A DNA stretch of 64,000 bases, taken from IMG/VR virus record IMGVR_UViG_3300033153_016044, positions 1-64,000 of that record, one strand, 5' to 3'. Shown piece by piece: positions 1-55,153 of this stretch. This DNA comes from a virus. Within the stretch, counting starts at the first letter, position 1; every line of letters starts with the position of its first letter. Made by a program: the position numbers and the translations under genes. The notes beneath the pieces were generated by a model. It was not told the DNA's origin and did no database searches. It was given only the letters and a program-made list of their open reading frames with translations.

Positions 1-909
1 CTAAGATTCATTTAAGACCTCATTAATTAGCTCTTCCCAGGATGCCTTGCAGCTATCCCATGTAAATGGAGTAGTAAGCATGTGTTCTCTAGGGGAATAC
101 GTACTACTAAGAACTCTCTGTATTGCATGAGAAAACTTATCTACTGTGTGCTCGCCGTCTATTCTAATTCCCACATCCATATTAAAATGACTTGCTAGCC
201 AACCAGTATGTGTGCCTATGACTGGCCTGTTACATAAGGCTGCTTCAACTGTTGTAAGATGCAGGGTTTCTAGTGGTGAGCACATGATGCAAAAGTCTGA
301 CTCATTGTATAGTCTAACCATTCCCTGTTCGCTAACTCCACCAGGATAGTTTCTTACATTTGGTAGGTTAATTCTATAACCAGCCTTGGATATATAGATG
401 AACTCAATCATAGTGTTGGCTTTAGCTATCTCTTCGAATAACTTAGTATTCTTTGTAGAGTTGTAGTCGCCGACAAATATTCCTATCCTTTTAAACTTAT
501 CAAAGATGTCATTCCTTTGTCTAAAGCTAGCCATGGGCTTGAATAGATTTTGATTCACACCAATAGGGATTGTCCTGACGTGGTCAAACGCCTCGAACTT
601 GTCTCTAGTGAAGTCACTATTAAATACAATGCAATCAGAATTATTACACACATCTAGCTGCTGTTCATCTCTACCATAGTAGTCTTGAACTAATGCAATT
701 TGCTTACATGGTCTATTAATTGTTCTAAAAAACGTTCCATTTCTTATGATTAAAGTGCATTGTCCTGGGTCATTTTCTATTGTCTCAGCCAGCTTATTAA
801 ATGGCGTGCCAGTCTTATCGACTGTGCCATCTATCTCAAGCAGCATGTGCCAGAAGGTCTTAGTGTCAGGTATACAGGTAAGTAGGTCGTTAACTATCCA
901 GATGCTCAT
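1..909 (-). CDS. GT-B fold glycosyltransferase (GT4-like)
   Basis: Predicted to transfer a sugar from a nucleotide-sugar donor in the cytoplasm. The 302-residue product has a two-Rossmann-domain layout. The C-terminal half carries the GT4-type signature around SPLETLHLTTVEAAL, where the second Glu would contact the donor, followed by the usual NRPVIGT strand. It is short for the family (often 350-400), mostly at the N-terminus. The gene is complete, with its TAG stop on the first bases of the window. It starts 20 nt inside the end of the FkbM-type methyltransferase gene, so it is the last visible member of the sugar operon. Acceptor and donor are unknown. Confidence 0.8.
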   Translation of the reverse strand: MSIWIVNDLLTCIPDTKTFWHMLLEIDGTVDKTGTPFNKLAETIENDPGQCTLIIRNGTFFRTINRPCKQIALVQDYYGRDEQQLDVCNNSDCIVFNSDFTRDKFEAFDHVRTIPIGVNQNLFKPMASFRQRNDIFDKFKRIGIFVGDYNSTKNTKLFEEIAKANTMIEFIYISKAGYRINLPNVRNYPGGVSEQGMVRLYNESDFCIMCSPLETLHLTTVEAALCNRPVIGTHTGWLASHFNMDVGIRIDGEHTVDKFSHAIQRVLSSTYSPREHMLTTPFTWDSCKASWEELINEVLNES

Positions 910-1519
910 TATTAATCCAAACTGAGTCGTATTGAGTTCCGTGCTGTATTCTAGCTCCCGCTAATTTAAGCATCGTAAACCCTAGGGTCTTTAAGAAATT
1001 ACAAACTCCATCATGTAACATTTTCTGACCAGAGAAGTATGCAACAGTCTCGGTCTCAATGTGCATTATTTTAACTGTATCTAGTAAGTCACCCATGCCC
1101 TCGAAGACATCATAAGTTGCACCCTCTACATCTATCTTCATCATATCAATTGATTCATCTATTATATGTAGGAACTCAGAGTCTAATCTATAGCAGGGAA
1201 CAGTTCTTTGTTCTGTACCATAGATAGAACCTCTATCGTAGATACCGTGAATGCCATTAGTTGTCTTGACGTGAAAGGTTGTCTCTCCAGTATAGGATGA
1301 GATAACTTTATTAAGCCAAGCAATACCACTAGGTGAGTGTGCTTTGTAGTTTTCTTCTAGTCCCTCGTAAGCTACCACTTGAGCGTTAGGAAAACATTGT
1401 TTAAAGTAAACTGAATCTGCACCATCCAGTGCACCAACTTCTACTATAGTTTTGATTTCATCTTCAGAAAATTTGTTCTTTACAATCTGAATAAACTCTT
1501 CCATGCCTATATTAGCCAT
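890..1519 (-). CDS. FkbM-family SAM-dependent methyltransferase
   Basis: Likely O-methylates a sugar hydroxyl, as FkbM-family enzymes commonly do in glycan clusters. The 209-residue protein has SAM-binding motif I (VEVGALDGADS), an acidic residue at the next strand end (VAYEGLEEN), and the family hallmark MMKIDVEGATYDVFEG in the middle. Length is typical. The start ATG overlaps the stop region of the preceding methyltransferase gene. An AGGAG about 13 nt upstream is a rather distant ribosome site, and a second in-frame ATG five codons in is possible. The substrate is inferred only from the surrounding glycosyltransferases. Confidence 0.85.
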   Translation of the reverse strand: MANIGMEEFIQIVKNKFSEDEIKTIVEVGALDGADSVYFKQCFPNAQVVAYEGLEENYKAHSPSGIAWLNKVISSYTGETTFHVKTTNGIHGIYDRGSIYGTEQRTVPCYRLDSEFLHIIDESIDMMKIDVEGATYDVFEGMGDLLDTVKIMHIETETVAYFSGQKMLHDGVCNFLKTLGFTMLKLAGARIQHGTQYDSVWINNEHLDS

Positions 1520-2194: not shown

Positions 2195-2897
2195 TTTCTC
2201 CCCTTTGAAAATGGTAAGCAATGCTATCATTTACCATCACTCTTTTCATACCAAATTTTTGCTCAAGAAGTCCAAAGGTTATCTTATCACCTGGGATACC
2301 TCTCCAGTTCTTTCTCCAGCCTCCTGCTTTGTATAGTATTTCCTTTTTAAATAGGCATGGCATATAAGCTCCAACCCCTTCTACTACACTATCCTCTTTT
2401 ACTGAGTCTGCAAAAGTTTCAAATTCTTCTTTCTTAAAAGACGCTAATGTTTGTCCAAAGTTCTTAGAGATTAACCCTGGTAGGCTAGGCATTCTTTCAC
2501 TCTCAACTAGTCTACATGTAGGAATAAATTGGTCCAGGTTATACTTAGCTAGATTATCTAGCCAGTCATCTGTAAAGGCCATATCACTATTGACAAAGCA
2601 AATTGCTTCTGTCTCACATTCTATTAGGCAACGGTTCCATGCATTGTAAACATTCTGAATCCACCAGTCATCTGGATTATCATTTTTATGAACAACTATT
2701 TTTATTGGAGGGTCATAGTTATGAGATAGATAGGATGAGTATTCACTAGCCTTGATAATTACTTCAGTTGTAGCATCATTACATACTATTAAATAGCTAA
2801 CATTGTGCTCTTTAGAAGGGAAGCTAAGAAGAGACTTCATTACAAAGTCTAGGTATGCTGGACTCTTGTATATTAGTGTGGCTACTGTAATATCCAT
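2172..2897 (-). CDS. GT-A fold glycosyltransferase, family 2-like
   Basis: A 241-residue GT-A enzyme predicted to use a nucleotide sugar and a divalent metal. The N-terminus (DITVATLIYKSPAYLDFVMKSL) is the usual nucleotide-binding start. VNSDMAFTDDWLD contains the DxD-like metal site, and the later GGWRKNWRGIPGDKITF segment resembles the acceptor-side loop of this family. Length is typical of a minimal GT2 domain and no membrane segment is visible. It follows the UDP-GlcNAc 2-epimerase-like gene without a gap. Acceptor unknown. Confidence 0.8.
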   Translation of the reverse strand: MDITVATLIYKSPAYLDFVMKSLLSFPSKEHNVSYLIVCNDATTEVIIKASEYSSYLSHNYDPPIKIVVHKNDNPDDWWIQNVYNAWNRCLIECETEAICFVNSDMAFTDDWLDNLAKYNLDQFIPTCRLVESERMPSLPGLISKNFGQTLASFKKEEFETFADSVKEDSVVEGVGAYMPCLFKKEILYKAGGWRKNWRGIPGDKITFGLLEQKFGMKRVMVNDSIAYHFQRGESAEVGDL

Positions 2898-4096
2898 TAG
2901 AAACTCTTCCAGTTCTCTGCTCTGAATGCATTGGTTATTGCACGCCCACCTCTATAGAAGTTATTCTTTAATCTATCTAATAGGTCAGTTACAATAATAT
3001 CTGCGGCATTACCATCACCAAGGGAGAAGTTTGGATTTTTCTTTTGACTAATAACATAATCCGCAGCATGATAAATCTTGTGTGGTTTATCTGTCATTAC
3101 AGTAATTCCGCTCTTGAATGTCTCAGGTCTTTCTGTGCTCCTTCTTAATACAACACATGGAGTTCCAAGTAATGCAGTAGTTTCTTGGTTAGTTCCTGAA
3201 TCAGTGAACTCTATCAGTGCACCCTTTTCTAACATAACAAACTCAAAGAATCCAAGAGGTTTTGTAAATACAAAATTAGTAAGTCCATCACCACCTAGTC
3301 TTTTCTTAAATCTAGATTGTTCCATTAGTAGTTTGAGTCTAGGCATTAGGGGAAGGACAACTGGAATTTCATGACAACTTGCCCACTCGTTTATCTCCAT
3401 CATTAAATCCGCTGACCCTACATGGTCCTTCATTCGTTCATCTCTGTGCATTGTCATTAGTGCAAACTTCTTGTATTGCAAGCTAACTCCATCTTTTAAA
3501 ATGTATGAATCAAGTTCAAAATTTTTCATAGGGTCTACTGGCCAATTAAACCTATCCTTATATTCATCAAGAATATCTACAATAGTATTGCCAGTTACAA
3601 CGATTTTAGTAGGGTCAATCCCCTCCTGCACAAGCTTACACTTATAGTCATGCTGATAAGCATAGAGGACGTCGCTAACTCTATCTATGATTACTCTGTT
3701 GCGCTCCTCTGGCATTCTCCAGTCATGGCTACGCATGCCGGCCTCGACGTGAGCAATAGGAATGCCCATCTTAAGTGGAGTAATACATCCAATGACAGCA
3801 TTGGCATCTCCAAGGAACATAACCACATCTGGCTTACCCTCTTCTATTACTGGCTCAAGTTGACTAATAAGTTTGGAGTGTTGTTGTGGGTGTGAACCAG
3901 CCTTGGTGTCCAGGTTGAATTGTGGCTCTGAGATACCAAGCTCTCTAAAGAAAATCCCCTTGAGGTTCTCATCGTAGTGTTGTCCTGTGTAGACAAACTG
4001 CAGCTCAACCTTAGGGTGTGCTTTAAGTTTCTTAAGTATCAGACTAGAACGTATGAAGTCCGGTCGAATACCAAACACAGTCATGACTTTAAACAC
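2897..4096 (-). CDS. wecB: UDP-N-acetylglucosamine 2-epimerase (non-hydrolysing type)
   Basis: Predicted to interconvert UDP-GlcNAc and UDP-ManNAc, or the C2 epimers of a modified UDP-HexNAc, in the cytoplasm. The 399-residue length fits the family. Visible motifs are GIRPDFI near the N-terminus (family GTRPE), YTGQHYD, FLGDANAVIG, AHVEAGMRSHDWRMPEERNR with the His/Glu catalytic region, VTGNTIVD, and near the C-terminus FTDSGTNQE. It sits directly beside an RmlD-like reductase and an RmlC-like cupin, the same trio of activities found in UDP-FucNAc-type pathways. The exact product is an inference. Confidence 0.88.
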   Translation of the reverse strand: MFKVMTVFGIRPDFIRSSLILKKLKAHPKVELQFVYTGQHYDENLKGIFFRELGISEPQFNLDTKAGSHPQQHSKLISQLEPVIEEGKPDVVMFLGDANAVIGCITPLKMGIPIAHVEAGMRSHDWRMPEERNRVIIDRVSDVLYAYQHDYKCKLVQEGIDPTKIVVTGNTIVDILDEYKDRFNWPVDPMKNFELDSYILKDGVSLQYKKFALMTMHRDERMKDHVGSADLMMEINEWASCHEIPVVLPLMPRLKLLMEQSRFKKRLGGDGLTNFVFTKPLGFFEFVMLEKGALIEFTDSGTNQETTALLGTPCVVLRRSTERPETFKSGITVMTDKPHKIYHAADYVISQKKNPNFSLGDGNAADIIVTDLLDRLKNNFYRGGRAITNAFRAENWKSF

Positions 4097-4928
4097 TAAC
4101 TTTTGCCATCCATTTTGCCTGCTGTTCTAACATCTTATACATACCTAGAGGCTCTAGTAGTGAGTTGAGATTCATCCTTGTTCTCAGTGTTCTATTACAA
4201 GATTGTGCTGCTTCTGTGGGACTAACCTCAATGCCTAGCTCTAGGGTATCATTGATAAAAGTTAGCAGTTCAAACTTATTTACATCATTAGAGTATAGGT
4301 GATATAACTCCTTAGAATGTAGGTCTCTAAGCATAATGTCACAAATCATGGTGGAGAACTCAAGCGTGGTCAGACCATTCCAAATATGATTCGTATAGCC
4401 ATTGGTCGTCTTGCCTTTTTCTGACAAAAACCACTCTATAAGTGACCTTTTGTTGCCTCCCCACTCTGGTCCAATGATACTTGTTCTTAAGACCATGCAG
4501 TCTTCTGACTCACCTAAGCTTTTACTTTTGCCATAATTGTCTAGTGCGTTATGTGGGCTAGATTCAGTATAATAACCGTCTACTCCATCGAATACACAGT
4601 CAGTAGTGATATGAATAATCTTAGCACCAATATTGAAGGTATCATTCCATTCTACTAGGTCGTGAGGAAAGCATGCGTTAGTATAAATTGCCTCATTTAG
4701 CCTGGATTTATCGTTAAATACAGGCTTAATGGCACCTATACAGTTTACTATATAATCTGCATCTTCTAGTGCTGGAATCTTATTTAACAATGACGCCATG
4801 CAGTATGAGGGATTGACTAATAGTCCATCTTTTCTTGATATACCTTCTACTTTTATGCCATGCACTTCCATCACTCTCTTGAGCATGCCTCCAAGCATGC
4901 CGGTATCTCCAAGAACAACAGCTTTCAT
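4089..4928 (-). CDS. RmlD-like NDP-4-keto-6-deoxyhexose reductase (SDR)
   Basis: A 279-residue extended short-chain dehydrogenase of the RmlD substrate-binding type. It would reduce a 4-keto nucleotide sugar with NAD(P)H. The N-terminal cofactor loop is GDTGMLG (GxxGxxG). Catalytic residues are visible in HITTDCVFDG and YGKSKSLGE (YxxxK). It overlaps the epimerase gene downstream by 8 nt and the cupin gene upstream by ATGA. The cupin plus this reductase together resemble the two domains of CapF-type enzymes, here encoded separately. The sugar made cannot be fixed from sequence. Confidence 0.82.
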   Translation of the reverse strand: MKAVVLGDTGMLGGMLKRVMEVHGIKVEGISRKDGLLVNPSYCMASLLNKIPALEDADYIVNCIGAIKPVFNDKSRLNEAIYTNACFPHDLVEWNDTFNIGAKIIHITTDCVFDGVDGYYTESSPHNALDNYGKSKSLGESEDCMVLRTSIIGPEWGGNKRSLIEWFLSEKGKTTNGYTNHIWNGLTTLEFSTMICDIMLRDLHSKELYHLYSNDVNKFELLTFINDTLELGIEVSPTEAAQSCNRTLRTRMNLNSLLEPLGMYKMLEQQAKWMAKVSV

Positions 4929-5389
4929 CTATTATCGACTCCCCAAATATCTTTATTAACTGTCCAGATTAATCTATGGTCATCTGATTTTACCATATCA
5001 AATGTTAGAGTGGAATAAACAAGTATCTTTGTGTTATCTGTTAGACTTACGGCTCCATTATAGAAACCTGCCGGAATATAAAATAGCTGTGGCTTTCTTT
5101 CTGTAAGAACTACCGATGTTATATCCTCATCATTGTCCATATTCATGGCAGCAAGTTTCACTGCACCACTAAGCACGTGCATATAGGTGTCACCCCTGCG
5201 ATGACCATGCCACGCGCGCACCAGCCCCCTAGAATGATTCTCAACAACGTATGTTCTTTGAATCATGTCGCTAATTAGCTCATCTCTGACACAATAAACA
5301 AAGCCTCTGTCATCTTGATACATAGGAATGTCATAGACTTCGGGTCGCGTCTCTGTGTGCTGTGTAAAGTCTACTGCAGACTTACTCAT
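4925..5389 (-). CDS. RmlC-like cupin, nucleotide-sugar epimerase
   Basis: A 154-residue single cupin related to dTDP-4-dehydrorhamnose 3,5-epimerase. Family features are DDRGFVYCV near the start, GLVRAWHGHRRGD with the candidate catalytic His, FYIPAGFYNGAVS, and SDDHRLIW near the end, which matches the DDxxLxIxW region of RmlC. It probably epimerises a 4-keto-6-deoxy nucleotide sugar before reduction by the next gene. It lies between the NAD-epimerase and the reductase, with 4-nt overlaps on both sides, which argues for a fixed stoichiometric pathway. Confidence 0.78.
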   Translation of the reverse strand: MSKSAVDFTQHTETRPEVYDIPMYQDDRGFVYCVRDELISDMIQRTYVVENHSRGLVRAWHGHRRGDTYMHVLSGAVKLAAMNMDNDEDITSVVLTERKPQLFYIPAGFYNGAVSLTDNTKILVYSTLTFDMVKSDDHRLIWTVNKDIWGVDNR

Positions 5390-6333
5390 GATAGCTCCTT
5401 AATGAACTTTGCGTTGTTGTATTGTGTGAGCCAGGGGTTTTTAATCCGACCCTCTATTTTATACTTTGTTAGTATCTCTACGACTCCATCATCAAGAGAT
5501 ATTTTAGATTTAATTCCATGAGCCAGTGCCTTCAGGTTATCTACTTGGTAATTTCTAAGGTCCTCGAACTTCATATCTGTTACTTCTACTCCACCATTAC
5601 CATCTACTAAATTTAAAATGGTATTGGCTACGTCAGATATCTTATAGTTTTTGTGACTTAGAATAAAGGTACCAACTGTGTCTGTTGACACAGCCTCGGC
5701 GAAAATTCTTCCCGCATCTCTAACGTGCAGCATGGGACGCCATTGTTCTCCACCAAAGACAGTAAGCTTCTCTCCCTCACACGCCTTGAATGTTAAGATG
5801 TTTGCCACCAAATCAGAACGAATACGGCCAAAAGGGCTAGAAAGACCAAACAATGTGCCGAGACGATAAATAACATGATTAGCATGTCTACTAACGTGTT
5901 TCTCTGCATTTAATTTTGTCCCAGCATACAGGCTAAGTGGGTTAGTTTCGCTTTGTTCATCTAATATTTTGTTGTTGGCGCCATAGACAGAGCAGGTTGA
6001 TGCAAAGATTAGTCTTATCTCTTCTGGTAGCTTATCCGCCAGAAAGGCCACGAACTCTTCGTTAATACTGACTGTTTCTGTAGGGTTTGCCGAGCATGCT
6101 CCGTCCCCCACAAGGGCAGCGAGGTGGATTACTGCATCAAAACGCTCAGATTCAATAAGGAATTCAAACTCTGGACTTCTGATGTCGGTCTGCATAAACG
6201 TGACGCCCTGTCTCATATATGAATCTGTATACAGCAGACTATCTACAACAACAACATCATGATTTTCCTCTAAGAGAGTCTCAACTACTGAGTCACCTAT
6301 GTATCCCGCTCCGCCAGTAACTAGAACTCTCAC
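5386..6333 (-). CDS. NAD-dependent epimerase/dehydratase (extended SDR)
   Basis: About 315 residues from GTG 6333. The Rossmann loop is VTGGAGYIG. Catalytic residues are in STCSVYG and SLYAGTKLNAEK (YxxxK). The segment HLAALVGDGACSANP is typical of SDRs found in deoxysugar and LPS clusters. It would epimerise or dehydrate a nucleotide sugar. A longer reading from ATG 6354 adds seven residues, but GAGGAG lies 9 nt before GTG 6333 and the protein then begins with the usual VRVLVTGG strand, so the GTG is preferred. It is first of four consecutive sugar-modifying genes. Confidence 0.85.
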   Translation of the reverse strand: MRVLVTGGAGYIGDSVVETLLEENHDVVVVDSLLYTDSYMRQGVTFMQTDIRSPEFEFLIESERFDAVIHLAALVGDGACSANPTETVSINEEFVAFLADKLPEEIRLIFASTCSVYGANNKILDEQSETNPLSLYAGTKLNAEKHVSRHANHVIYRLGTLFGLSSPFGRIRSDLVANILTFKACEGEKLTVFGGEQWRPMLHVRDAGRIFAEAVSTDTVGTFILSHKNYKISDVANTILNLVDGNGGVEVTDMKFEDLRNYQVDNLKALAHGIKSKISLDDGVVEILTKYKIEGRIKNPWLTQYNNAKFIKELS

Positions 6334-6373
6334 TTCTCTCTGCTCCTCAGCCATGCTCTACTACTATAAGAGT

Positions 6374-6445
6374 TTACTTTCTCTCTCTGGTCACTTTTAG
6401 CTTGAACAATTTTAACAGGGCCGCCACAATAGCATAGCTTTTCAT
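6374..6445 (-). CDS. Possible 23-residue basic peptide
   Basis: A short reading frame, ATG 6445 to TAA 6374, fills most of the 108 bases between the serine protease gene and the epimerase gene. Its ATG overlaps the protease TGA as ATGA, the coupling pattern used by neighbouring real genes. The peptide has a short hydrophobic run (AIVAALLKLF) followed by a basic tail (KLKVTRERK). No family is recognised and chance is quite possible. Confidence 0.25.
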   Translation of the reverse strand: MKSYAIVAALLKLFKLKVTRERK

Positions 6446-7323
6446 ACATCGGCATTAGCTCTTTGCATATGCCACACTCTTTTGCATAGAACAGGGAGGC
6501 CAAAATAAACTCCTAGGTGACAGTTAAGTAAAATTAAAGACACAAGAAGAAAGGTCTGAAGTTGATAAGCTTTTGTATCTTCAATAGTCTGGATGTAATG
6601 TTCAGCATTATGCTCCATTAGATGAAGCCTAATACTAGTTGCTCCCATGTATCCAGACCACAATTGAGGACCAAATGGTCCGGCATCTCTTTTAATTATT
6701 ATTATACCAAGTAGTTGTCCGTCATCTTCTGTAAAGACTGGTCCACCACTATTACCAAACCAAATATTGAGAGTGGTCCTATCGTACATGGCAAACCCTT
6801 CTGCATCTGTGCTTTGATTTCCAAAAGTAATGTGGAGAGTTTCCCCGTTCGACCTTCCTATTGTATAAATCTTTTTGCCTGCACCAGTAAGAATGTGGTC
6901 TTCTAGAGAAACTAGCCTAATGTTAGACTTCATAGAAGTTTCTGGTTGGATTACAACAAAATCATATCCTTTTGCTACTCTTAATTTACCAGGAGGAGCA
7001 TATACTACTCTGCCTGTTAGAGAAAACTCTTCAGGATAATAGAACTTGAGCCGCACATCTCTTTCTCCAAAATCAATTCTTCCATTTCTATTTACATCTA
7101 CTACATGCTTTGCTGTAAGAATTTTTCCATTACTTATAAGAACACCTGTGCCTCCTCCATCGAAGCTTTTATCAAGAAGAACAGTAACCGCGCATGTAGC
7201 TGCAAACTGGTCTTCAAATTTTTCTTCTACATGAAAGGTAGGTCTATCTGGTGGGGTTAGAACTTCATATATAAAGACTAGGGACGACAAAAAGAAGAGA
7301 CTATAGAGTAAAGCTTTTTTCAT
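6442..7323 (-). CDS. Membrane-anchored trypsin-like serine protease with EF-hand-like loop
   Basis: A 293-residue S1-type protease. Residues about 4-22 form a signal anchor and residues about 250-275 are again hydrophobic. The protease domain should therefore face the periplasm or outer side. The catalytic triad is visible: His73 in TAKHVVD, Asp121 in GYDFVVIQ and Ser192 in FGNSGGPVF. Immediately after His73 is DVNRNGRIDFGE (76-87), a canonical 12-residue EF-hand calcium loop, placed where trypsins have their calcium-binding loop. Such proteases are unusual in phage genomes. The substrate may be a host envelope or virion protein. It overlaps the upstream glycosyltransferase gene by 4 nt. Confidence 0.85.
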   Translation of the reverse strand: MKKALLYSLFFLSSLVFIYEVLTPPDRPTFHVEEKFEDQFAATCAVTVLLDKSFDGGGTGVLISNGKILTAKHVVDVNRNGRIDFGERDVRLKFYYPEEFSLTGRVVYAPPGKLRVAKGYDFVVIQPETSMKSNIRLVSLEDHILTGAGKKIYTIGRSNGETLHITFGNQSTDAEGFAMYDRTTLNIWFGNSGGPVFTEDDGQLLGIIIIKRDAGPFGPQLWSGYMGATSIRLHLMEHNAEHYIQTIEDTKAYQLQTFLLVSLILLNCHLGVYFGLPVLCKRVWHMQRANADV

Positions 7324-8087
7324 TTTATTCTCATGGCAACTGGCGCTTGGAAAACCTGGTTGAAGTCAGCCTCCATTGGCTGAATCCTAAACCATTCCGG
7401 CTTAGACTTTGCTACACGCAGCGTGCGCTCATCTATTAGCCTATTAAGAGCCCAACCACTCTGTCCATGAGACCTATAAGTTAAATACTTGTCTACGATT
7501 CTATCATCACTTGAGAACCCGTAATGTATAACCTTTATGTCTGTTGTATCTATCCTATCTATTCCGTTGGGGTATTGCCTCTGGTGAAGTCCAGGTCTAT
7601 CATCATAATATAGTTCTCCTGTATTTTTCCACAGCCTACAGAACTCTCCATCGTTGTAAGAGTTGTCTAGTCTATAGAAAGATGGGTCTCTCCACAGGTT
7701 AACCTCTTTAAAGCCATAAGCATTACAGACGGCGTTTTCGCACACCTCTCTGATGCCTCCGCTCTCTCCCTTGGCCTCTACAACCTCGTCACAATCTAGC
7801 CAGAAAATCCAATCTGACCCAATTTCTACAGCTACCTCAAGCATTTTTTGCTTATGCTGTATTTCATTCTTAAAGTTATTCTTCTCACCATGTATAAATA
7901 TTATCTCCGACATATAACTATCCATATGGGAGCCTCTTGATAGATACTTTACTGTATCATCAGTGGAGCCATCATTATATACGATGAGTGTATCACAATA
8001 TCTTTTTACTGAGTCCATAAAGCGTGGAAGATTATTCTTTTCCATTTCGTTATAGATTTGGCATATTGCCGTTAACTTAAATGACAT
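7320..8087 (-). CDS. Family 2 glycosyltransferase
   Basis: A 255-residue GT-A enzyme. The N-terminal nucleotide-binding part has QIYNEMEKNNLPRFMDSV and YNDGSTDDT, and the metal site is WLDCDEVVE. The second half is rich in aromatic residues (CRLWKNTGELYYDDRPG) as in GT2 enzymes with a small acceptor domain. No membrane helix is seen. The ribosome site AGGAG lies 11 nt before the ATG and overlaps the stop of the GIY-YIG remnant. Donor and acceptor unknown. Confidence 0.85.
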   Translation of the reverse strand: MSFKLTAICQIYNEMEKNNLPRFMDSVKRYCDTLIVYNDGSTDDTVKYLSRGSHMDSYMSEIIFIHGEKNNFKNEIQHKQKMLEVAVEIGSDWIFWLDCDEVVEAKGESGGIREVCENAVCNAYGFKEVNLWRDPSFYRLDNSYNDGEFCRLWKNTGELYYDDRPGLHQRQYPNGIDRIDTTDIKVIHYGFSSDDRIVDKYLTYRSHGQSGWALNRLIDERTLRVAKSKPEWFRIQPMEADFNQVFQAPVAMRIK

Positions 8088-8101
8088 GTGTCCATACTCT
8101 C

Positions 8102-11146: not shown

Positions 11147-11933
11147 CATCAGGAGCCTTAACAAGCTGTGGAGCATACTGAGACTGCATTGCTTGCTGCG
11201 CCATACTATCGTAGCGTCCTGTTTTTATGTATTCAAGAGCTAGCTCTTTGCATTTGTGTGCAGCCGCCGCCTCTTCTTCTTTTCTGTTTCCACTAATCTG
11301 GTTGGGGTGCACTCTGAATCCAGCAAGGATATTCTTAATTAGGGCGAAACGAGTAAATTCTGCTGCTCTGACACACCAATTAAAGTCCTCACAAATCTCG
11401 TGACAATAGTCTCCGACCTTATCCCATAATTCTTTTGTATACATAAATGACATACCTATATCGTAGCCATTAACTAGGTCCTGTGCTGGCTGTGGTTGAG
11501 TATGCTTAACTTCCTTAATGGCTCTATCGTTGTGGTCGATAAAAACAAAATCAGAATAAACAAAGTGAACATCCTGAGCCACTGTGGCCTGCAAGCATTG
11601 AGATAATGTTGCTAGGAAGCCTGGGAAATACAGGTTATCAGCACTGCACCATGTCATAAACTTACCCTTGGCTGCGTGGTGTCCCACGTTTAGTGCGCTC
11701 CCTGTTCCTCCATTCTCTTTCTCAAGATACCTAATACGTCGGTCAAAGAAGAACTTCTCAATAATAGACTTTGTGTTATCTATAGAGCCATCATTAACTA
11801 TTATGATTTCAAAATCACCCATGGGCTGCTTGATTAAACAGTCAAGAGTCTTAGCTATATACTTCTCTGCATTATACGCTGGAACTATTATTGAAACAAG
11901 CGGATTGTCGTTATCAATTTTGATTTCTATCAT
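11142..11933 (-). CDS. Family 2 glycosyltransferase
   Basis: A textbook GT2 domain of 263 residues. It has VSIIVPAYNAEKYIAKTLDCL, IIIVNDGSIDNT, ENGGTGSALNVG, and WCSADNLYFPGFL, where the usual DxD becomes SADN. HEICEDFNWCVRA supplies the acceptor-side acidic residue. The C-terminus is Ala/Gln-rich and low in complexity. It overlaps the zincin lipoprotein gene upstream by 4 nt. Soluble. Acceptor and donor unknown. Confidence 0.87.
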   Translation of the reverse strand: MIEIKIDNDNPLVSIIVPAYNAEKYIAKTLDCLIKQPMGDFEIIIVNDGSIDNTKSIIEKFFFDRRIRYLEKENGGTGSALNVGHHAAKGKFMTWCSADNLYFPGFLATLSQCLQATVAQDVHFVYSDFVFIDHNDRAIKEVKHTQPQPAQDLVNGYDIGMSFMYTKELWDKVGDYCHEICEDFNWCVRAAEFTRFALIKNILAGFRVHPNQISGNRKEEEAAAAHKCKELALEYIKTGRYDSMAQQAMQSQYAPQLVKAPDA

Positions 11934-12529
11934 TTCCAGTTCCTTATTACCTTTCTATAAACATACTTCATGTATTGAGGTCCACCATACTTGAGGGTAT
12001 GGTTCAAAGTATAGGCCATTTGCTCTGAGTATTCACCAACGCCGAATAAATCTGTAAGAATTCTGTCTGCAAATTTATTTACATATGCAGCGCGGCTTGG
12101 ATATTCTTTTTTAAACCTAGCCCACGCAGGCTTGAATTCTTCTACACTTACTAGGTCTATATCTCCATCTCTTGTCATATCATCTATGTGATGGAAGTAT
12201 TCATGTGCAAGAAGATAAACTCCGTTGTTCTTTAATCCTTTCATGTTAATGACAACCTTGCGACCCAAGCCTAATCGTGTTACAACAGCAAGCAGACTGG
12301 TCCAAACATTAACGCCAGCAACATAGCTGCCACCAAACGTAATGCCATCTATACTTGGTATGCCCTTAACTGCATCATATGCTTCATCAGTAAAGTAATA
12401 CTGCAGAGCGCTGTCTACAGTCTCGTGGTGAGGGGCTCGTCTTTGACTAATTGGAATGATGTGATTTATCTTTGTAATATGGGTAGCACAACCAGTAAAA
12501 AACATTAGAAAAACTAATAAATATCTCAC
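11930..12529 (-). CDS. Lipoprotein with zincin-type HExxH motif
   Basis: A 199-residue protein with a 12-residue hydrophobic leader ending FFTGC, an acceptable lipobox, so it is probably lipidated and exported. LLAHEYFHHIDD carries the HExxH zinc motif, and a downstream Glu in GEYSEQMAYTL could be the third ligand of a gluzincin. Family not recognised. It may be a metallopeptidase or an inactive relative that binds peptidoglycan or protein. It overlaps the VWA gene by 4 nt. These two plus the serine protease are the only clearly exported products in the island. Confidence 0.65.
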   Translation of the reverse strand: MRYLLVFLMFFTGCATHITKINHIIPISQRRAPHHETVDSALQYYFTDEAYDAVKGIPSIDGITFGGSYVAGVNVWTSLLAVVTRLGLGRKVVINMKGLKNNGVYLLAHEYFHHIDDMTRDGDIDLVSVEEFKPAWARFKKEYPSRAAYVNKFADRILTDLFGVGEYSEQMAYTLNHTLKYGGPQYMKYVYRKVIRNWK

Positions 12530-13230
12530 TTCTTTTTATTCCTTACTAGATAATAGCCTCCGTTGTAGGTATCACCTAGGTTCTTGAGGAATGTTTGGCA
12601 CTCTTGGTCTGGTCTCTTTACTTTGCTTGACCAGTATACCTTATTCTCTAATCCTATTGTGAGTATTGTTGCTGAGAATAATCCTTTTTCATTTCTCCAA
12701 TCTTGAGCATCTCTAATTATATTGTAGGAACTACGGTAGCCACTTCGCGTAACAGATTCAGTGAATCCACCATCAGTAATTAAAATGATAGTCAATGTTC
12801 TGGACATTGCATTATTTTTATTAAGTGGATTGCTGCTCTTAATGGCCATAGACATAGCCTTGTTGCCGTATGACCTTACCTGTTTGCTTTTAGATATCCA
12901 TCCGTAAAGTTTTTTTAATTCCTTCTCGCTCTTCTTGCCACCGGCTGAAATCCACGGATAGAACTTCTCGTTGTTCTTATCTCCAAATAAAATTGCAGAG
13001 AAATACCATTCATCTGAAACAAGTCTATTTGTTATAACTCTCCACGCTCTATAGAACTTAGTCTTAAGCCCCTTGCTGTTCCTCATGGTGCTGGAGCCAT
13101 CTATTACAAACACGATATTATTGGAAACAAACTTAGTAGGCAGAATTTCCACAAACTCTGTGTTGTGATGAGCGAAGACCGGGAGAACTAGCATTATATA
13201 GAAGATAATAGCAAGTAATTTACTTCTCAC
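12526..13230 (-). CDS. Secreted von Willebrand factor A (VWA) domain protein
   Basis: A 234-residue protein with a Sec-type signal peptide (basic start, hydrophobic 5-18, cleavage probably after PVFA). The rest is one VWA domain. The first strand NIVFVIDGSSTMRNSKG holds the metal-ion-dependent adhesion site as DxSxT in place of DxSxS, and TLTIILITDGGFTES holds the later MIDAS Asp. It would bind a protein ligand through a divalent metal in the periplasm or outside the cell. The start is GTG 13230. It is co-translated with the HExxH lipoprotein, suggesting that they act together. Confidence 0.75.
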   Translation of the reverse strand: MRSKLLAIIFYIMLVLPVFAHHNTEFVEILPTKFVSNNIVFVIDGSSTMRNSKGLKTKFYRAWRVITNRLVSDEWYFSAILFGDKNNEKFYPWISAGGKKSEKELKKLYGWISKSKQVRSYGNKAMSMAIKSSNPLNKNNAMSRTLTIILITDGGFTESVTRSGYRSSYNIIRDAQDWRNEKGLFSATILTIGLENKVYWSSKVKRPDQECQTFLKNLGDTYNGGYYLVRNKKK

Positions 13231-13681
13231 TTAGGAGACCCTTGCGCTTTAATATTTGTTCAACAAAAGACTCGAAGGAATATAGTGGGTCATCCATATA
13301 CTTTGCCTGGGCCTGTTGTGAATAGGCTACACCATGGACTCTAAAATTAATGGATGTCTTATCTCCTAGCGGTATAAAGGCTATCTGTCTTTGGTTAAAT
13401 GCTACGAGAGCAAACCCATCTATATCTTCCTTCTCATAGATAGATGACTTGTTTCTATTTTTCTTTAGTGAAAATTCATAGACTAGCTTCTGTGTCTTAG
13501 AAGCCTTGCGAGGCAAGTTAATAGTCTTAACCTGAATCTTAATCAAGTTGTCATTTACATCAGCCACTAGGTCATACTTAACCTTGGGCGGTGTGGTAAG
13601 ACAGACGTGACCGCGAGCTGTAATCTCTGCAGCTACTAGGTATTCTCCCGCCTGTCCCATAAAATGTGCGTCGTGTTGCAT
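13220..13681 (-). CDS. PD-(D/E)XK endonuclease, I-Ssp6803I-like family
   Basis: A 153-residue protein whose first half matches the small PD-(D/E)XK family that includes the homing endonuclease I-Ssp6803I. GQAGEYLVAAEITARGHVC gives the N-terminal helix with Glu, and KYDLVADVNDNLIKIQVKTI gives the catalytic D...(Q)xK core. It could be a free-standing homing endonuclease or a host-type nuclease. No intron is evident beside it. It overlaps the VWA gene by 11 nt and abuts the 66-residue unknown. Confidence 0.7.
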   Translation of the reverse strand: MQHDAHFMGQAGEYLVAAEITARGHVCLTTPPKVKYDLVADVNDNLIKIQVKTINLPRKASKTQKLVYEFSLKKNRNKSSIYEKEDIDGFALVAFNQRQIAFIPLGDKTSINFRVHGVAYSQQAQAKYMDDPLYSFESFVEQILKRKGLLSEK

Positions 13682-13881
13682 TAGTTTTCCTCAAATAGAT
13701 GAACATCGAATAGTGTATTAAAATCATCAAGACACTCCCAAGACAACAGCATTACTGTGCAGCCTCGCTTTCCTTTTACAAAGATAGATGCTCCATGCTC
13801 TGGCAGGTATCCAGTTATGGGAAACTCATCATCCTTTTTGAATATATCCCAATCTTTTGTTAGTGTTGCTATACCATGCAT
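13681..13881 (-). CDS. Uncharacterised 66-residue protein
   Basis: Not recognised. A small, probably soluble alpha/beta protein with a mixed charge pattern, aromatic residues in LTKDWDIFKKDDEF and a central SIFVKGKRGCTVMLLSWE strand-like stretch. Its start overlaps the stop of the methyltransferase gene upstream by 1 nt, and its stop overlaps the nuclease start in the same way. This supports a real, coupled gene. It might assist either neighbour, but nothing in sequence proves that. Confidence 0.5.
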   Translation of the reverse strand: MHGIATLTKDWDIFKKDDEFPITGYLPEHGASIFVKGKRGCTVMLLSWECLDDFNTLFDVHLFEEN

Positions 13882-14486
13882 TATTGTTTCTCAAAAATAA
13901 ATACGGCTCTAACTCTATGGTTAGTTGACCTACTAATTGCTATCTCTCCAACTCTTTTAAATTCTTCCTTACGATACATTGGCAGGACCATATCCATCCA
14001 GCATAGGTAGCCACCCTTGCGTAACACCTTGTAAGCTTCCTTCACTACCTTATTCCGATTCACCATGGGGTTCCCGTAGCGTAGTGCGTCCGACTCTGTA
14101 TATGGTGGGTCTGCTAGAATCAAATCGTAGTAATCGTTTTTGACATGCTCAGACATCTCTTCTGCGTTGCAGCATACGTCTGGACCAAGGTCAGGATTAA
14201 TATCAATCTTCAGCCCCCTATTCATATCACCCAGTGAGCCACTAAATAACTGTAGTGTTCTGCATTTAGCTACGTCTGGAAAAAGAGAATGAATTCTTTT
14301 TAAGTAAGAAGGAGGATAACTTCCGTGATACCCACTACCCTTGTAGTTATTGCCTATATTCCAGATGCCAAGCAACCATCCTTTATCATGCCACATAGAT
14401 GGATAATGAGGGAAGGTTCCATTGTATAATTTTACTCTTTCATCCATGGTATATTTCATGCTTCTAGCCAGATTTTCATACTTCAA
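13881..14486 (-). CDS. DNA methyltransferase-like protein with DPPY motif
   Basis: A 201-residue Rossmann methyltransferase. TLQLFSGSLGDMNRG is motif I-like. YYDLILADPPYTESDALRYG contains the DPPY motif that marks amino-methyltransferases acting on adenine or cytosine N4, or on glutamine or RNA bases. LRKGGYLCWMDMVLPM is the following strand. No separate target-recognition domain is visible, so it is small for a sequence-specific DNA methylase. It lies next to a PD-(D/E)XK nuclease two genes away, which invites a restriction-modification reading, though spacing and size give no proof. Confidence 0.65.
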   Translation of the reverse strand: MKYENLARSMKYTMDERVKLYNGTFPHYPSMWHDKGWLLGIWNIGNNYKGSGYHGSYPPSYLKRIHSLFPDVAKCRTLQLFSGSLGDMNRGLKIDINPDLGPDVCCNAEEMSEHVKNDYYDLILADPPYTESDALRYGNPMVNRNKVVKEAYKVLRKGGYLCWMDMVLPMYRKEEFKRVGEIAISRSTNHRVRAVFIFEKQ

Positions 14487-15528
14487 CCGTATTATAGAAT
14501 GGCTCCATTCTTTTTGTGCCCCAGAAGTCTTCCATCCACACTGCTATGTTAGGTAGCCTTGGCTTAGAGTAAATCTTATCCTCTTTCCAATTTTTGATTG
14601 GTATTCCTCTCTTGACTGCCGAAGAAGCCAGCAAATGATAACCTTCATCATTCGCATCTCTCTGTGGGTGACCATCTATCGCTGCAGGATGTGGTCCATC
14701 ATAGTGGAGGATTTCATTAAGGTCTTCTTTTCGGTTTACAAACTCATCTAGCTTAATATCAAACTCTGCACCAGCATTACCTCCACGTCCTTCAAACTTA
14801 GCTAGCTCACTGCGATAAAACTCTGCCTTCATCTTGTGAAACTCAACACCCTTTGCGTGACCATAGTGATATATATAGAGGCCAGGCATAGTAAACCTTA
14901 GCGTCTGCATTCCTGGGTCAAAGTATGTGCACTTGCCGTTAGGAAGTGTAGCAACTGGATGAGTATGGTATCTCATGCCAGGAACATACTTGATTATCCT
15001 TTGGTGCTGTGGCTGCCATTCGGGATGTGGTGCCCTGACGTGAGAAAAGTCTCTATAGAAATGCAGAAATGTTGGAATGATTTCTGAAGCCGAGGGATGT
15101 TTATGAATAGCCTGACGGACCCTCTCTATATCTCCCTCCATGTAGAACTCATCGGCATCTACTATGAATAGCCATTCGCCTTCTGTGGCTGCCTCAAGAA
15201 AGATTTGCTTCTGCTCTTCCAGTGACTTAAACGGTCGGTTAAGCGTATATAATTGAATCTTATTGTCGGGGTCAGGGAAATTTTTAATAATTTCCACAGT
15301 ATTGTCAGTGCTAGAACCATCAGGCGTAGCTCCTGGACGCCCCTCCACAGCACCCTCAACAATCCTAATGATGTCAAATTCATCATAGTTGTTTTTAAGA
15401 ACGTGCTCAATCCAATCCGCTTCATTGTGACATCCAATACATTTAACAAGCTTAATATTATTCAGCGCATAGTTTACATCTGTAAGAATCCTTGACATTT
15501 GATTAGACATTACAGGCTTCTTTCTCAA
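14476..15528 (-). CDS. Family 2-like glycosyltransferase
   Basis: A 350-residue GT-A protein. Motifs are VKCIGCHNEADWIEHVLKN, SSTDNTVEIIKNF, and EWLFIVDADEFYMEGD with the metal-binding DAD. The C-terminal third contains YHYGHAKGVEFHKMKAEFY, common in GT2 enzymes such as those annotated as lipooligosaccharide or protein glycosyltransferases. The start could be ATG 15528, or ATG 15510 just outside the preceding gene's stop. No strong ribosome site decides. It is soluble and overlaps the GT4 gene upstream. Confidence 0.8.
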   Translation of the reverse strand: MRKKPVMSNQMSRILTDVNYALNNIKLVKCIGCHNEADWIEHVLKNNYDEFDIIRIVEGAVEGRPGATPDGSSTDNTVEIIKNFPDPDNKIQLYTLNRPFKSLEEQKQIFLEAATEGEWLFIVDADEFYMEGDIERVRQAIHKHPSASEIIPTFLHFYRDFSHVRAPHPEWQPQHQRIIKYVPGMRYHTHPVATLPNGKCTYFDPGMQTLRFTMPGLYIYHYGHAKGVEFHKMKAEFYRSELAKFEGRGGNAGAEFDIKLDEFVNRKEDLNEILHYDGPHPAAIDGHPQRDANDEGYHLLASSAVKRGIPIKNWKEDKIYSKPRLPNIAVWMEDFWGTKRMEPFYNTVEV

Positions 15529-16600
15529 TGCATTCTAGGACGCTCTTAGTGGTGTTAGCCCAGGTCAATCCCTTGGCTGTTTCAATACCTGCAATATTTA
15601 ATCCTAACTGACCTGACTGCTTTCTTTCGTGAACAGTTCTCATGTGAGCCACTAGCTGTGCTAAATCAAAAGTAGCCCAGTCTCCTTGGCCGTTAAACCA
15701 TTTACCATCTATAGCAGGTTCCATTCCAGTAACGTCTAACATTAGAGAGTTCTCTTCTGTCAAGAACTGAGTGTGACCTGAATAGTTTGTAGAAATAATA
15801 TGAGCACCGCAAGCCATAAGCTCTGGAATCTCTAGGTTCCAGCCTTCTGCATGACTAGGGAACACACCGCAGTCTACATGGTTAAAGATTTTTCTAATCT
15901 GGTCGTGACTATCTAGTCTAGGGAAGAACTTAATATGCCCAACCATATTAGTGCTGGCATACTTCTGCTTCCATTGAAAGTTCTCGTGACCAATAAACGG
16001 ATTGTCGTTTATCATCCATAGCTCTACGTTATCACCTGGCTGAAAAGCTGCACAGAAAGCTGCAATTAATTCATCATGTCCCTTGCGCTTCTCCCACTTG
16101 CCCATGTTGATAAATATAGTAGTGTCCTTCTGCCAGTATGCTCTCTTGGCTCTCTCTGCTTCATCTACGAAGAAGATTTTAGGGTCTATACCTAGAGGAG
16201 CTACTGTTACTGGAACATCTATTCCATTTTCTTTAATTACATTCTTAGCCCAGTCCGAACATACAATAAGGTTGTCAACATTACTAAGGTTATGCATCTC
16301 TCTGTCATTGAATCTGTTCAGTTCAAAGATAGGCCACCCAATTCTAAGCCCCTTGCCCGGAAACATATCTAGCTCATATTGATGCCAAATTCTAAGAGAT
16401 GGCGCATTACTATTATATCTCTGGGCCCTAGCTATTGCATCATCAAACTTCTTTTGCAATTCATTATTGGCGGGCCAACTTACATTGCCAAGTGGGAAGT
16501 AAGCTACGTCGTGACCATCAGCTACTAGTGACTGAAATACATTACAACCAACAACACCATAGCCTAATGTGTTGATGGGTGAGATTAAATTAATATCCAT
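15503..16600 (-). CDS. GT4-family glycosyltransferase
   Basis: A 365-residue GT-B enzyme. The first domain has ISPINTLGYGVVGCNVFQSL and IVCSDWAKNVIKENG. The donor domain has FINMGKWEKRKGHDELI and the GT4 signature HAEGWNLEIPELMACGAHII, in which the two Glu residues are eight positions apart. Length is normal. It overlaps the next GT4 gene by 11 nt. Three GT4 genes in a row (15503-19384) look like successive steps of one glycan assembly. Confidence 0.87.
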   Translation of the reverse strand: MDINLISPINTLGYGVVGCNVFQSLVADGHDVAYFPLGNVSWPANNELQKKFDDAIARAQRYNSNAPSLRIWHQYELDMFPGKGLRIGWPIFELNRFNDREMHNLSNVDNLIVCSDWAKNVIKENGIDVPVTVAPLGIDPKIFFVDEAERAKRAYWQKDTTIFINMGKWEKRKGHDELIAAFCAAFQPGDNVELWMINDNPFIGHENFQWKQKYASTNMVGHIKFFPRLDSHDQIRKIFNHVDCGVFPSHAEGWNLEIPELMACGAHIISTNYSGHTQFLTEENSLMLDVTGMEPAIDGKWFNGQGDWATFDLAQLVAHMRTVHERKQSGQLGLNIAGIETAKGLTWANTTKSVLECIEKEACNV

Positions 16601-17750
16601 TAGACAACTTCCATTTTTTGTAGTAGTACATTATGCTATCTCTCATGTGTGTTCCAATCTTATCATAGGAAAAGTCCTCGACTCTATCCTTACATGATTT
16701 AATTCTATTAGACCACTTGGAGTTACTGCTATTTAATTGGTGATAGTTCCACTCGTGATATGCGTTCCTCATGGCACTTCTCAAACTAGAGGTGCTGGGC
16801 TCAGCCCAGTTATCATTTCCTGTATACATAAACTTATGTGGGTGAGGCATATCAAAACATGGACTCATGTCGTAATCCACGAGCCAACCACAGTCATCTG
16901 TGATGAACTCTGTTGGTCCACCCCAGTTAACAGCAATAGGAGGAACACCAAATCCCATCGCATCAAAGTGAGGAATGCCCCAGCCTTCTCCTCTACTAGG
17001 TAGCACGTAGCAATCTGAACTAGAATACAATCTATCAATTGACTCTTGTTTCAATACCTCGTGCACTAGGTATAGACTTGGATATGAGTCTATACGCAGT
17101 AACTCTTTAGCCTTATTAATTTGGTTGAGCATTTTCTGCTTGTGGTCAGCACCATCTGAGCTTCCGAAGTATACTTTTAGAATAAGCATCACATTATCTG
17201 ATGCTCTAAACTCACTGAAGTATGCCTTGAGCAATGCGTCCAATCCCTTCTTCTTGCTAATCTGACAGATGGCTAGGAACTTAAACTTACCACTACTATT
17301 GGGAATTTGAAATGGCTGTGCTTCAATATATCTACTCTTGTCAAATGTATGCTGAACCTTAACAATAGGAATGTGAACACCAGCCACTCTTGCGGCCCTG
17401 ACATTTTCATCGCAGGGAACCAGTGCTAGGTCCATAGTATTTATTTTCTCGACCCACTCTGTTGGAACTCTATCTGTCTCCCATGCAAAGTAGTTAACAT
17501 TAAACACGCCATCTTTTCTAACTGTCTCATTTGGAGTGGTGTGCTGGATGACTATGTCCACATTCTGAACATCTCTATTGAGAAGCTCTACCTCTCTAGC
17601 AGAAAACGGATGTTCTCCGCCATCGTAGCTTAATGTTCTTGTAACTAAATTACAGCCCACACTATCTAGTGCTCTTACATAATCTCTAGCAGCAGTAGCG
17701 TAGCCGCTGAAATCTTTTAGTGGTGCTGCATATAAAATCTTAGGACTCAT
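16590..17750 (-). CDS. GT4-family glycosyltransferase
   Basis: A 386-residue GT-B enzyme. DFSGYATAARDYVRAL is the N-terminal glycine loop, and FLAICQISKKKGLDALLKAY opens the donor domain. SRGEGWGIPHFDAMGFGVPP is the EX7E-type signature, with His-Phe-Asp replacing the usual second Glu region. This is a variation to note, since the second acidic position may be Asp. The C-terminus is rich in His, Trp and Tyr. No membrane segment. It shares a 4-nt overlap with the upstream GT4. Confidence 0.85.
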   Translation of the reverse strand: MSPKILYAAPLKDFSGYATAARDYVRALDSVGCNLVTRTLSYDGGEHPFSAREVELLNRDVQNVDIVIQHTTPNETVRKDGVFNVNYFAWETDRVPTEWVEKINTMDLALVPCDENVRAARVAGVHIPIVKVQHTFDKSRYIEAQPFQIPNSSGKFKFLAICQISKKKGLDALLKAYFSEFRASDNVMLILKVYFGSSDGADHKQKMLNQINKAKELLRIDSYPSLYLVHEVLKQESIDRLYSSSDCYVLPSRGEGWGIPHFDAMGFGVPPIAVNWGGPTEFITDDCGWLVDYDMSPCFDMPHPHKFMYTGNDNWAEPSTSSLRSAMRNAYHEWNYHQLNSSNSKWSNRIKSCKDRVEDFSYDKIGTHMRDSIMYYYKKWKLSNGY

Positions 17751-19384
17751 AGGAGTATACCTGCCAGTGAGGTGTTGTTAAATGAAAGACCTTGGCTTGG
17801 GTCGAATCCTCTAACTTCAAGCGACTTTTCCCACCTAATCCTTTCAAAGTTATTGTGTGTGGCTCCTTCATTTCTAAAGAATGACTCAACCGCTGCTCTT
17901 GAGGTCCCATTGGCCAGTGAGGTAACCCAATTGGTGTATCCCTCTTGGTCTGGTTCTCTACCAAGGATGAGCTGATAACAAGCAAGAACAAAGTTTTCAT
18001 TATTTAGATTGCCAGGAACTTGTCTTTTGTTTATAACTCTATACTCTGGTCGCCTATCCCAAGTTTTGTTTCTATCATCAATTTGAATCTCATCGAAGAT
18101 TTCCTCAAATTTCTCTGCAGTAGAACTCCAGTTATGAAGCTTTTCTGATACAGCCCTAGCCAGTTTGCCCAGCTTCTTTCTCTTCTTTGGATTGCAGAGC
18201 AGAAGCTTAAATCCATCTACCATACTTTGGACATCTGGTAGTGACCTTACTGCCATCGTCTCAGCTTCTGTATAGAATGTTCCAATGTCTATGCCCATTC
18301 CTCCACCATTCTCAACGTGGTCTTCCATAGCTGAGTAGTTAGAATATAGGCCAGGAACTCCACAGGATTTTGCTTCAACAATAGGAAGAGCCCAGCCCTC
18401 ACAAATAGCTGGCTGGACATATATATCCATCATGTTAAAAATTTCAGATAGTTCCTCGGTAGAGACACCACTATGTGTGTTGGGCATATGAGCCTTCATC
18501 TCTCCACAGAAGATGCACTTGCCTAGCCCTTTCTTTCCCTCACTAGGAATGAACCAAGAGAAGAAGCACCTGTGGCAGCCGTCACACTTATAGGTGAATA
18601 TGACATGACGATTGATTCCATTTCTTTCAATTAGCTCAGGTATATTCCAACCAACATCCGGCCAACTGGTGTGGCAAAGTAGAACAGACTTCTTAACTTC
18701 TCTTAGATGTCCATACTCTTTACGTAGCTGGGAGTATGCCTGAAACAGTTCGGGGAAACACTTGCGCTTCTGATTTCTCATCACTGTTCCTATAATCTTC
18801 AAGCCTTTTTGAATTCCCCAGTCTGACCTAATCTTATTCTTATCGCCAGGAGAAAAGGCTTCTAGGTCTACACCGGGACTAGTAACAGTCTTGACTACTG
18901 CACCTTGACCTTCTAATACCCTCTTGCCAAACCTACTATATGTAGTGACTACATCTGCCTTCTTGAATATATTATCTATCCAATCTTTTCTTTGTGGGGC
19001 GCTATCAACAGTTGGAGTAAGAACAACCTTAAAGTTATCTCTAAACTGAGACTTCATAATATGTTCTACCATCCATGGGTCTCGGGCATCGAAGACAATA
19101 TCAGGCTGGAAGTCTGCTACTACAGCATCGAACTTATAAACACCAAACTGATTTGTGGGTTTACTCTTGTATATATCTGCCTCCTGTTGGTTCTTAGGTA
19201 GATTACCGTAAAACTTCCAGGGTAGCGCGAGGGCGCTAGGGTCTGATGAATTACCATAGCTACCAAACTCTGCTATGGTATACTTGCCTGTGTTGTGGAT
19301 TCTTCTTATAATCTCTTTGTTGTACGTAGCAAAACCAGTTGAAAGCCAACTGGATTCTCCACAAAATAAAATTCTCTTTTTCAT
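17747..19384 (-). CDS. GT4 glycosyltransferase with inserted zinc ribbon and C-terminal DUF4214
   Basis: A 545-residue fusion, longer than a normal GT4 (about 380). The N-terminal Rossmann domain has FCGESSWLSTGFATYNKEI. A zinc ribbon (YKCDGCHRCFFSW, then KCIFCGEMK) is inserted at about residues 267-300, in the donor domain. The signature CEGWALPIVEAKSCGVP follows. Residues about 465-520 match DUF4214 (FVLACYQLILGREPDQEGY), a domain found in bacterial surface and secreted proteins and in some glycosyltransferases. It is the first enzyme of the island and follows the sigma-like gene by a 4-nt overlap. Confidence 0.87.
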   Translation of the reverse strand: MKKRILFCGESSWLSTGFATYNKEIIRRIHNTGKYTIAEFGSYGNSSDPSALALPWKFYGNLPKNQQEADIYKSKPTNQFGVYKFDAVVADFQPDIVFDARDPWMVEHIMKSQFRDNFKVVLTPTVDSAPQRKDWIDNIFKKADVVTTYSRFGKRVLEGQGAVVKTVTSPGVDLEAFSPGDKNKIRSDWGIQKGLKIIGTVMRNQKRKCFPELFQAYSQLRKEYGHLREVKKSVLLCHTSWPDVGWNIPELIERNGINRHVIFTYKCDGCHRCFFSWFIPSEGKKGLGKCIFCGEMKAHMPNTHSGVSTEELSEIFNMMDIYVQPAICEGWALPIVEAKSCGVPGLYSNYSAMEDHVENGGGMGIDIGTFYTEAETMAVRSLPDVQSMVDGFKLLLCNPKKRKKLGKLARAVSEKLHNWSSTAEKFEEIFDEIQIDDRNKTWDRRPEYRVINKRQVPGNLNNENFVLACYQLILGREPDQEGYTNWVTSLANGTSRAAVESFFRNEGATHNNFERIRWEKSLEVRGFDPSQGLSFNNTSLAGILL

Positions 19385-54066: not shown

Positions 54067-54074
54067 ATACCTCT

Positions 54075-54124: not shown

Positions 54125-54143
54125 TGTTTAGTCCTTAAAGCTT

Positions 54144-54842: not shown

Positions 54843-54843
54843 C

Positions 54844-55152: not shown

Positions 55153-55153
55153 G

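Follow-up and report, generated by a model that had tools for sequence, protein, structure and literature searches.

A predicted carrier-free glycosylation island, with a conserved core beside dnaE, in an uncultivated phage lineage

The first 19,384 bases of the virus record IMGVR_UViG_3300033153_016044 are occupied by an island of sugar genes (1–19384), all on the minus strand, which from its sequence is best read as a phage-owned cytoplasmic glycosylation pathway that would need no lipid carrier. Its product would most probably be glycosylated virion proteins, a reading to which we give odds only slightly better than even (a probability of about 0.5). The record is linear and 97,729 bp long (G000); the window analysed here is the stretch formed by its bases 1–64,000. 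In the proposed mechanism, a core glycosyltransferase of family GT2 with a SunS-like fold would place the first sugar on protein, core enzymes of family GT4 would extend that sugar, and the outer genes would add clade-specific deoxy-, amino- and methylated sugars supplied from GDP-mannose and UDP-GlcNAc routes. The acceptor, which is less certain, would be an abundant virion protein, or several, produced in the same cytoplasm, and the released particles would bear a glycan coat that changes fast between relatives. The original prediction, made from the letters of the window, had proposed that a methylated, branched, deoxysugar-containing oligosaccharide is put on virion proteins to mask the particle. 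Its phage-owned soluble pathway is borne out, with a sugar that is deoxy and C-methylated and with export genes missing from the record and its relatives alike, whereas the virion acceptor, the masking and the branching are still inferred.

A conserved core beside dnaE and a variable periphery

A scan with the aligned product of 17747–19384, a GT4 enzyme ending in a DUF4214 domain (PF00534, PF13946), returned 43 virus contigs, the longest of 182 kb. The fetched stretch holds a dnaE homologue in all 43, and in 26 of them the order is dnaE, GT4-DUF4214, a second GT4 (16590–17750; PF00534) and the core GT2 (14476–15528; PF00535). Six further contigs keep this order but have additional genes interposed (ssb, a second dnaE half, a third GT4), which brings the count to 32 of the 43, and dnaE with both GT4s was seen in another six. 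These figures are lower bounds, as some stretches end at contig ends and a BLAST threshold was applied. The GT4-DUF4214 enzyme carries a zinc ribbon (Cys267, Cys270, Cys290, and Cys293) inserted in its GT4 domain, which alignment shows to be invariant in four relatives; its structural model is of moderate quality (predicted local distance difference test [pLDDT] 69) and confirms the GT-B fold only.

Among the 43 contigs, the outer sugar genes are restricted to the nearest relatives, and the remaining GT4 next to the core (15503–16600; PF00534) is likewise confined to the close clade. The sugar 3-C-methyltransferase (9108–10349) is absent from the closest relative, a 69,697-bp sister phage (G001; loci L007 and L019–L021), and from a 177-kb relative (G007), but eight contigs of other, unrelated phages have homologues 52–60% identical to it, and several of these contigs also carry the NAD-epimerase/cupin/RmlD triad, a 2-epimerase, and a GDP-mannose 4,6-dehydratase (GMD). 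Because this gene is missing in close kin and yet found in other phages, the periphery, judged by gene content, is mobile among phages and the core stable. A phage isolate sharing this core was not found: tblastn of the core GT2 against 50,697 phage records gave no match, and the sole match of GT4-DUF4214 is Tetrasphaera phage TJE1, at 23%.

Two observations concern the lineage and its dnaE. A 158-kb contig binned in a Hydrogenophaga metagenome-assembled genome (L127), which holds a relative of GT4-DUF4214, looks like a phage genome of the lineage; it gives a weak hint of Hydrogenophaga as host, on which we do not rely. DNA polymerase III alpha is split in the window into a part with the PHP and catalytic N-terminal regions (24044–25936) and a C-terminal part (20745–22313), with nucleotide-metabolism genes between; the split is shared by the sister and G007, and L025 has a single DnaE of 1157 amino acids.

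The core GT2 resembles polypeptide glycosyltransferases

The core GT2 was folded from 27 sequences and gave a model with a pLDDT of 88. A Foldseek search of this model placed the peptide S-glycosyltransferases SunS and ThuS on top (E values of 3e-11 to 1e-9), followed by the next family at 7e-7, and VIA likewise ranked SunS/ThuS first, with Z scores of 15.4 (root-mean-square deviation 4.2, 227 residues aligned) and 15.3 compared with 13.7 for the next family. The match covers model residues 3–338. At the level of sequence families the enzyme falls far below the SunS family model TIGR04195 (18.1 bits against a cut-off of 350), although SunS is the sole family that NCBIfam reports, with weak scores, for four members of the core GT2 group. 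A profile of the group also matches GmaR at 1.5e-5, with nothing else convincing, and GmaR glycosylates flagellin (PMC9638930). The SunS and GmaR likenesses, which are views of one resemblance, point to a polypeptide as the acceptor, and the core GT2 may work like SunS even though it is not filed as SunS.

Ten soluble glycosyltransferases

The island contains ten glycosyltransferases, which Pfam divides into six GT2 and four GT4 enzymes, and PF00534 and PF00535, run over the entire record, returned the same ten places and none in the other 78 kb. The original prediction had located these ten open reading frames correctly, and nine of the ten pass the Pfam gathering cut-off; the tenth (2172–2897), a GT2 by PF00535 at 19.6 bits against a cut-off of 23.3, is matched in the sister by an orthologue at 73% identity. 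By eye the motifs look intact, E-x7-E (or E-x7-D) in the GT4s and DxD-like in the GT2s. The prediction that none of them has a membrane segment was upheld by a hydropathy scan, which found no hydrophobic segment in any, and the island thus contains several phage-encoded soluble glycosyltransferases, as does virion glycosylation of the mycobacteriophage type. Outside the core, the other members are a GT4 at the left edge (1–909; PF13692 and PF00534 just above cut-off, 70% identical in the sister) and the GT2s at 7320–8087 (PF13704, PF00535), 8209–9111 (PF00535; 80% in the sister), 10346–11176 (PF00535; diverged, with 42% in the sister), and 11142–11933 (PF00535, E 4e-29).

The island lies far beyond chance, with strong family matches and syntenic sister orthologues at 42–91% identity. 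Its description as a sugar island fits the sugar genes that are present, but five non-sugar genes lie inside, and the record opens on the stop codon of the first glycosyltransferase, so the island is cut at base 1. The genes were said to be joined mostly by 4-nt overlaps; 19 of the 22 junctions do overlap, but only eight by exactly 4 nt. A promoter scan was uninformative (56 sites seen against 56.3 expected).

No lipid-carrier or export gene was found

Searches for initiating transferases (PF02397) and Wzx flippases (PF01943) found neither in 12 records, while positive controls were detected; the signature of a Wzx/Wzy-type O-antigen or capsule locus is therefore lacking. One caution attaches to the genome profile search: it missed a weak nucleotidyltransferase in G007 that hmmscan found, so a negative from it is not fully safe. 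An independent check on these negatives comes from the membrane-segment scan. No protein with at least four hydrophobic segments was found in the record, the sister, or G007, and among 1,982 proteins drawn from partly overlapping related and comparison loci, a single tape-measure-like protein was multi-segment and none was convincing; Escherichia coli WecA, WzxE, and WzyE gave 10–11 segments each in the same scan. The predicted lack of Wzx, Wzy, and an initiating transferase in the window thus extends to the whole record, the sister, and G007. An integrase (PF00589) was not found in the four records searched, all of which are classed as linear, a class that is often made up of fragments. With neither an integrase nor a multi-segment membrane protein of the GtrA or Gtr(type) kind, the locus also differs from the serotype-converting gtr clusters of temperate phages.

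Supply of sugar nucleotides and the missing dehydratase

The 2-epimerase, RmlD-like, FdtA/RmlC-like, NAD-epimerase, and sugar C-methyltransferase genes named in the original prediction were all confirmed by Pfam and PDB matches. The first is a non-hydrolysing UDP-HexNAc 2-epimerase (2897–4096; PF02350, TIGR00236 above cut-off) whose nearest PDB entries are of the WbpI and CapG types. It is followed by an RmlD-like sugar reductase (4089–4928; PF04321), an FdtA/RmlC-like cupin sugar isomerase or epimerase (4925–5389; PF05523, PF00908), and a sugar-nucleotide enzyme of the extended short-chain dehydrogenase/reductase type (5386–6354; PF01370). Alignment of the last shows the motif STCSVYG and not the STDE type of 4,6-dehydratases; its best PDB match is 6vo6, which we take to be C. 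jejuni Cj1427, a GDP-heptose C4 dehydrogenase. The 3-C-methyltransferase is of the TylC3/TcaB9 type, with PF08421, PF13489, and PF08484 all above cut-off; these matches and alignments to 4rv9 and 5t64 show a zinc-binding N-terminal domain, an S-adenosylmethionine (SAM) domain, and a C-methyltransferase C-terminal domain with the IYHEH active-site segment. The prediction had also listed FkbM-type enzymes: one gene is indeed an FkbM methyltransferase, likely for sugar O-methylation (890–1519; PF05050, TIGR01444; 90% in the sister), and the other is a SAM methyltransferase of the Methyltransf_24 family (1512–2024; PF13578).

The sister retains nearly the whole island in order, at 42–91% identity, with an extra GT2 and methyltransferase, and continues leftward with a HAD protein, a mannose-6-phosphate-isomerase-like cupin, and a GMD (E 6e-126). 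G007 is collinear with the record from the terminase to the island, and then carries a GMD, the weak nucleotidyltransferase, a UDP-sugar dehydrogenase, a glutamine synthetase, and a sulfotransferase-like gene. PF16363 matches of GMD strength come from the sister and eleven longer relatives (148–183 kb; G003, G007, G009–G017), while the record, the 44.6-kb G008, and the 22-kb G002 give a weaker match of the NAD-epimerase type only. Since the sister and the eleven longer relatives carry it, the absence of the dehydratase from the record is most likely truncation; we reject it as a property of the phage, and in the sister and G007 the enzyme lies beyond the point where the record is cut. The original prediction had proposed searching the rest of the genome for a nucleotidyltransferase, a 4,6-dehydratase, and a flippase: no flippase appeared, the GMD lies only in relatives, and the nucleotidyltransferase is weak and in G007.

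Several features of these relatives were recorded in passing. In G003 (the contig of L025), the GMD match at 53483–55444 is split by ∼320 residues within one open reading frame of 692 amino acids, which looks like an intein or a similar insertion, and the NAD-epimerase of the sister (L019:17476–18888) reads as a 470-residue open reading frame with an HNH endonuclease domain N-terminal of it. Besides the glutamine synthetase and sulfotransferase-like gene of its island, G007 has an NKWYS-domain gene and another sulfotransferase-like open reading frame, recognized by eye and without a Pfam match, among its head and packaging genes (coordinates of the two sets, listed together: L132:3875–4864, L132:13072–13722, L135:14775–15512, and L136:1981–2616).

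Non-sugar genes inside the island

The five non-sugar genes are all kept in the sister, so they are not random insertions, and none has a visible tie to the glycan. They encode a trypsin-like protease with two membrane segments by hydropathy (6442–7323; PF13365; also kept in L024 and G007); a lipoprotein-like protein with the metallopeptidase motif HEYFHH, of the HExxH form (11930–12529; 61% in the sister, with a relative in G007); an exported VWA-domain protein with an N-terminal hydrophobic segment (12526–13230; weak PF13519); a PD-(D/E)XK protein (13220–13681; PF11645); and a DPPY-type methyltransferase, likely acting on nucleic acid (13881–14486; weak PF13847, PADLOC MTase_II; 91% in the sister). 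The PADLOC matches of the trypsin-like protein were set aside as generic protease-domain matches. The protease and the two products of 11930–13230, kept in relatives, may act on the host envelope. Elsewhere, L006:9463–10956 encodes a 497-residue protein with a GHKL-type ATPase domain and a C-terminal HExxH-like motif, which has a 34% identical relative in G007.

Which molecule is glycosylated?

Several points weigh against glycosylation of virion proteins by this pathway. A SunS-like fold at 16–18% identity does not fix the acceptor, and other GT2 families share the fold and score close behind SunS/ThuS. The Ser/Thr content of the predicted proteins reveals no dense mucin-like stretch, and none of the virion proteins is known to carry a glycan. 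Three exported proteins (6442–7323, 11930–13230) sit inside the island. Solubility is also shared with many O-antigen glycosyltransferases, E. coli WecF scoring no segment in our scan, and the host could supply an initiator and a flippase.

The exported proteins and the solubility of many O-antigen glycosyltransferases favour the main rival, remodelling of the host surface, in which the phage glycosyltransferases would extend or rebuild lipid-linked host glycans (O-chain or capsule) through the host initiator and flippase and so block superinfection or change receptors during infection. Comparable pelagimyophage clusters have been taken as O-chain modification in published work (PMC7029224). 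We nevertheless regard this explanation as rather unlikely: the 12 tested records encode neither a membrane nor a carrier step, the core GT2 is SunS-like, and the lack of an integrase in the four searched records makes lasting serotype conversion unlikely.

The likeness to SunS and GmaR speaks for a polypeptide without saying which one, and the core adjoins the replication module rather than head or tail genes, so that a non-virion protein could be the acceptor, the glycan serving to disarm or activate either a protein of the host or an effector of the phage. This is improbable, as ten glycosyltransferases together with all the sugars they need would be a high price for a regulatory modification, and fast-varying outer sugars suit a surface under selection. 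Glycosylation of phage DNA against restriction, which the original prediction also ranked below proteins, is very improbable: hypermodification of DNA by phage glycosyltransferases, with several glycans, is on record (Pyle et al., 2024, cited in PMC12619734) and the island adjoins replication genes, but no supporting gene was found, the 12 records containing no base hydroxymethylase of the thymidylate-synthase type (controls detected) and ThyX being present instead, and the numbers of glycosyltransferases and sugar enzymes exceed those that known DNA systems have or need. A search of four records for TET/JBP dioxygenases gave no match, while its control went undetected too.

Virion protein glycosylation remains the preferred reading. 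More tentatively, and with doubt outweighing belief, one might extend it to the whole uncultivated lineage, which would keep a carrier-free protein glycosylation system consisting of a SunS-like initiator and two GT4s, one of them bearing the zinc ribbon and DUF4214, fixed beside the replication genes. Swappable cassettes for the outer sugars would then give the virions of even closely related phages different coats, the phage equivalent of serotype switching in bacteria.

Comparison with known systems

Glycosyltransferase clusters are common in environmental phages and it is disputed whether their target is the host O-chain, DNA, or the virion. Here, about 40 relatives were compared and a conserved core was told apart from variable genes; the GT2 of that core is a single soluble enzyme of SunS-like fold that lends itself to expression and direct assay on phage proteins. 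Should virions indeed carry changing phage-made glycans, the consequences would extend to phage serology, to receptor binding, and to how phages compete with one another.

The closest precedent is found in mycobacteriophages, where glycans occur on capsid and tail-tube proteins and phage-encoded glycosyltransferases are thought to decorate virion proteins (Freeman et al., 2023, as reported in PMC12619734). By comparison, the present island has ten glycosyltransferases with a sugar-nucleotide supply, belongs to an unrelated uncultivated lineage, and is known from genes alone. Chloroviruses glycosylate their capsid in the cytoplasm with virus-encoded enzymes that include a GMD (PMC5408694), and mimivirus-group capsid or fibril clusters are similar in that virus-owned glycosyltransferases are accompanied, in Megavirinae, by a 2-epimerase/reductase set (PMC10117803). 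A chlorovirus glycosyltransferase (3oy2) is among the fold matches of the GT4-DUF4214 model. Those are eukaryotic giant viruses with another gene set, and there the acceptor is proven. Pelagimyophages are environmental phages that also gather many glycosyltransferases and sugar genes in a hypervariable region; that region holds tail-fibre genes, and the excerpt of PMC7029224 describes no conserved glycosyltransferase core, whereas here the core is fixed beside dnaE. SunS and ThuS share the soluble GT2 fold across nearly the full length of the core GT2 and, like the flagellin GlcNAc transferase GmaR, act on polypeptides in the cytoplasm; the core GT2 differs in its 16–18% identity, and no bacteriocin precursor or flagellin was noticed beside the gene. 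Phages that glycosylate their virions are already known, as are glycan gene clusters in viruses. What is new is an uncultivated lineage whose glycosyltransferase core is fixed beside dnaE, with a GT4 that combines a zinc ribbon and DUF4214, a GT2 of SunS-like fold for which no relative was detected in phage records, and exchangeable outer cassettes.

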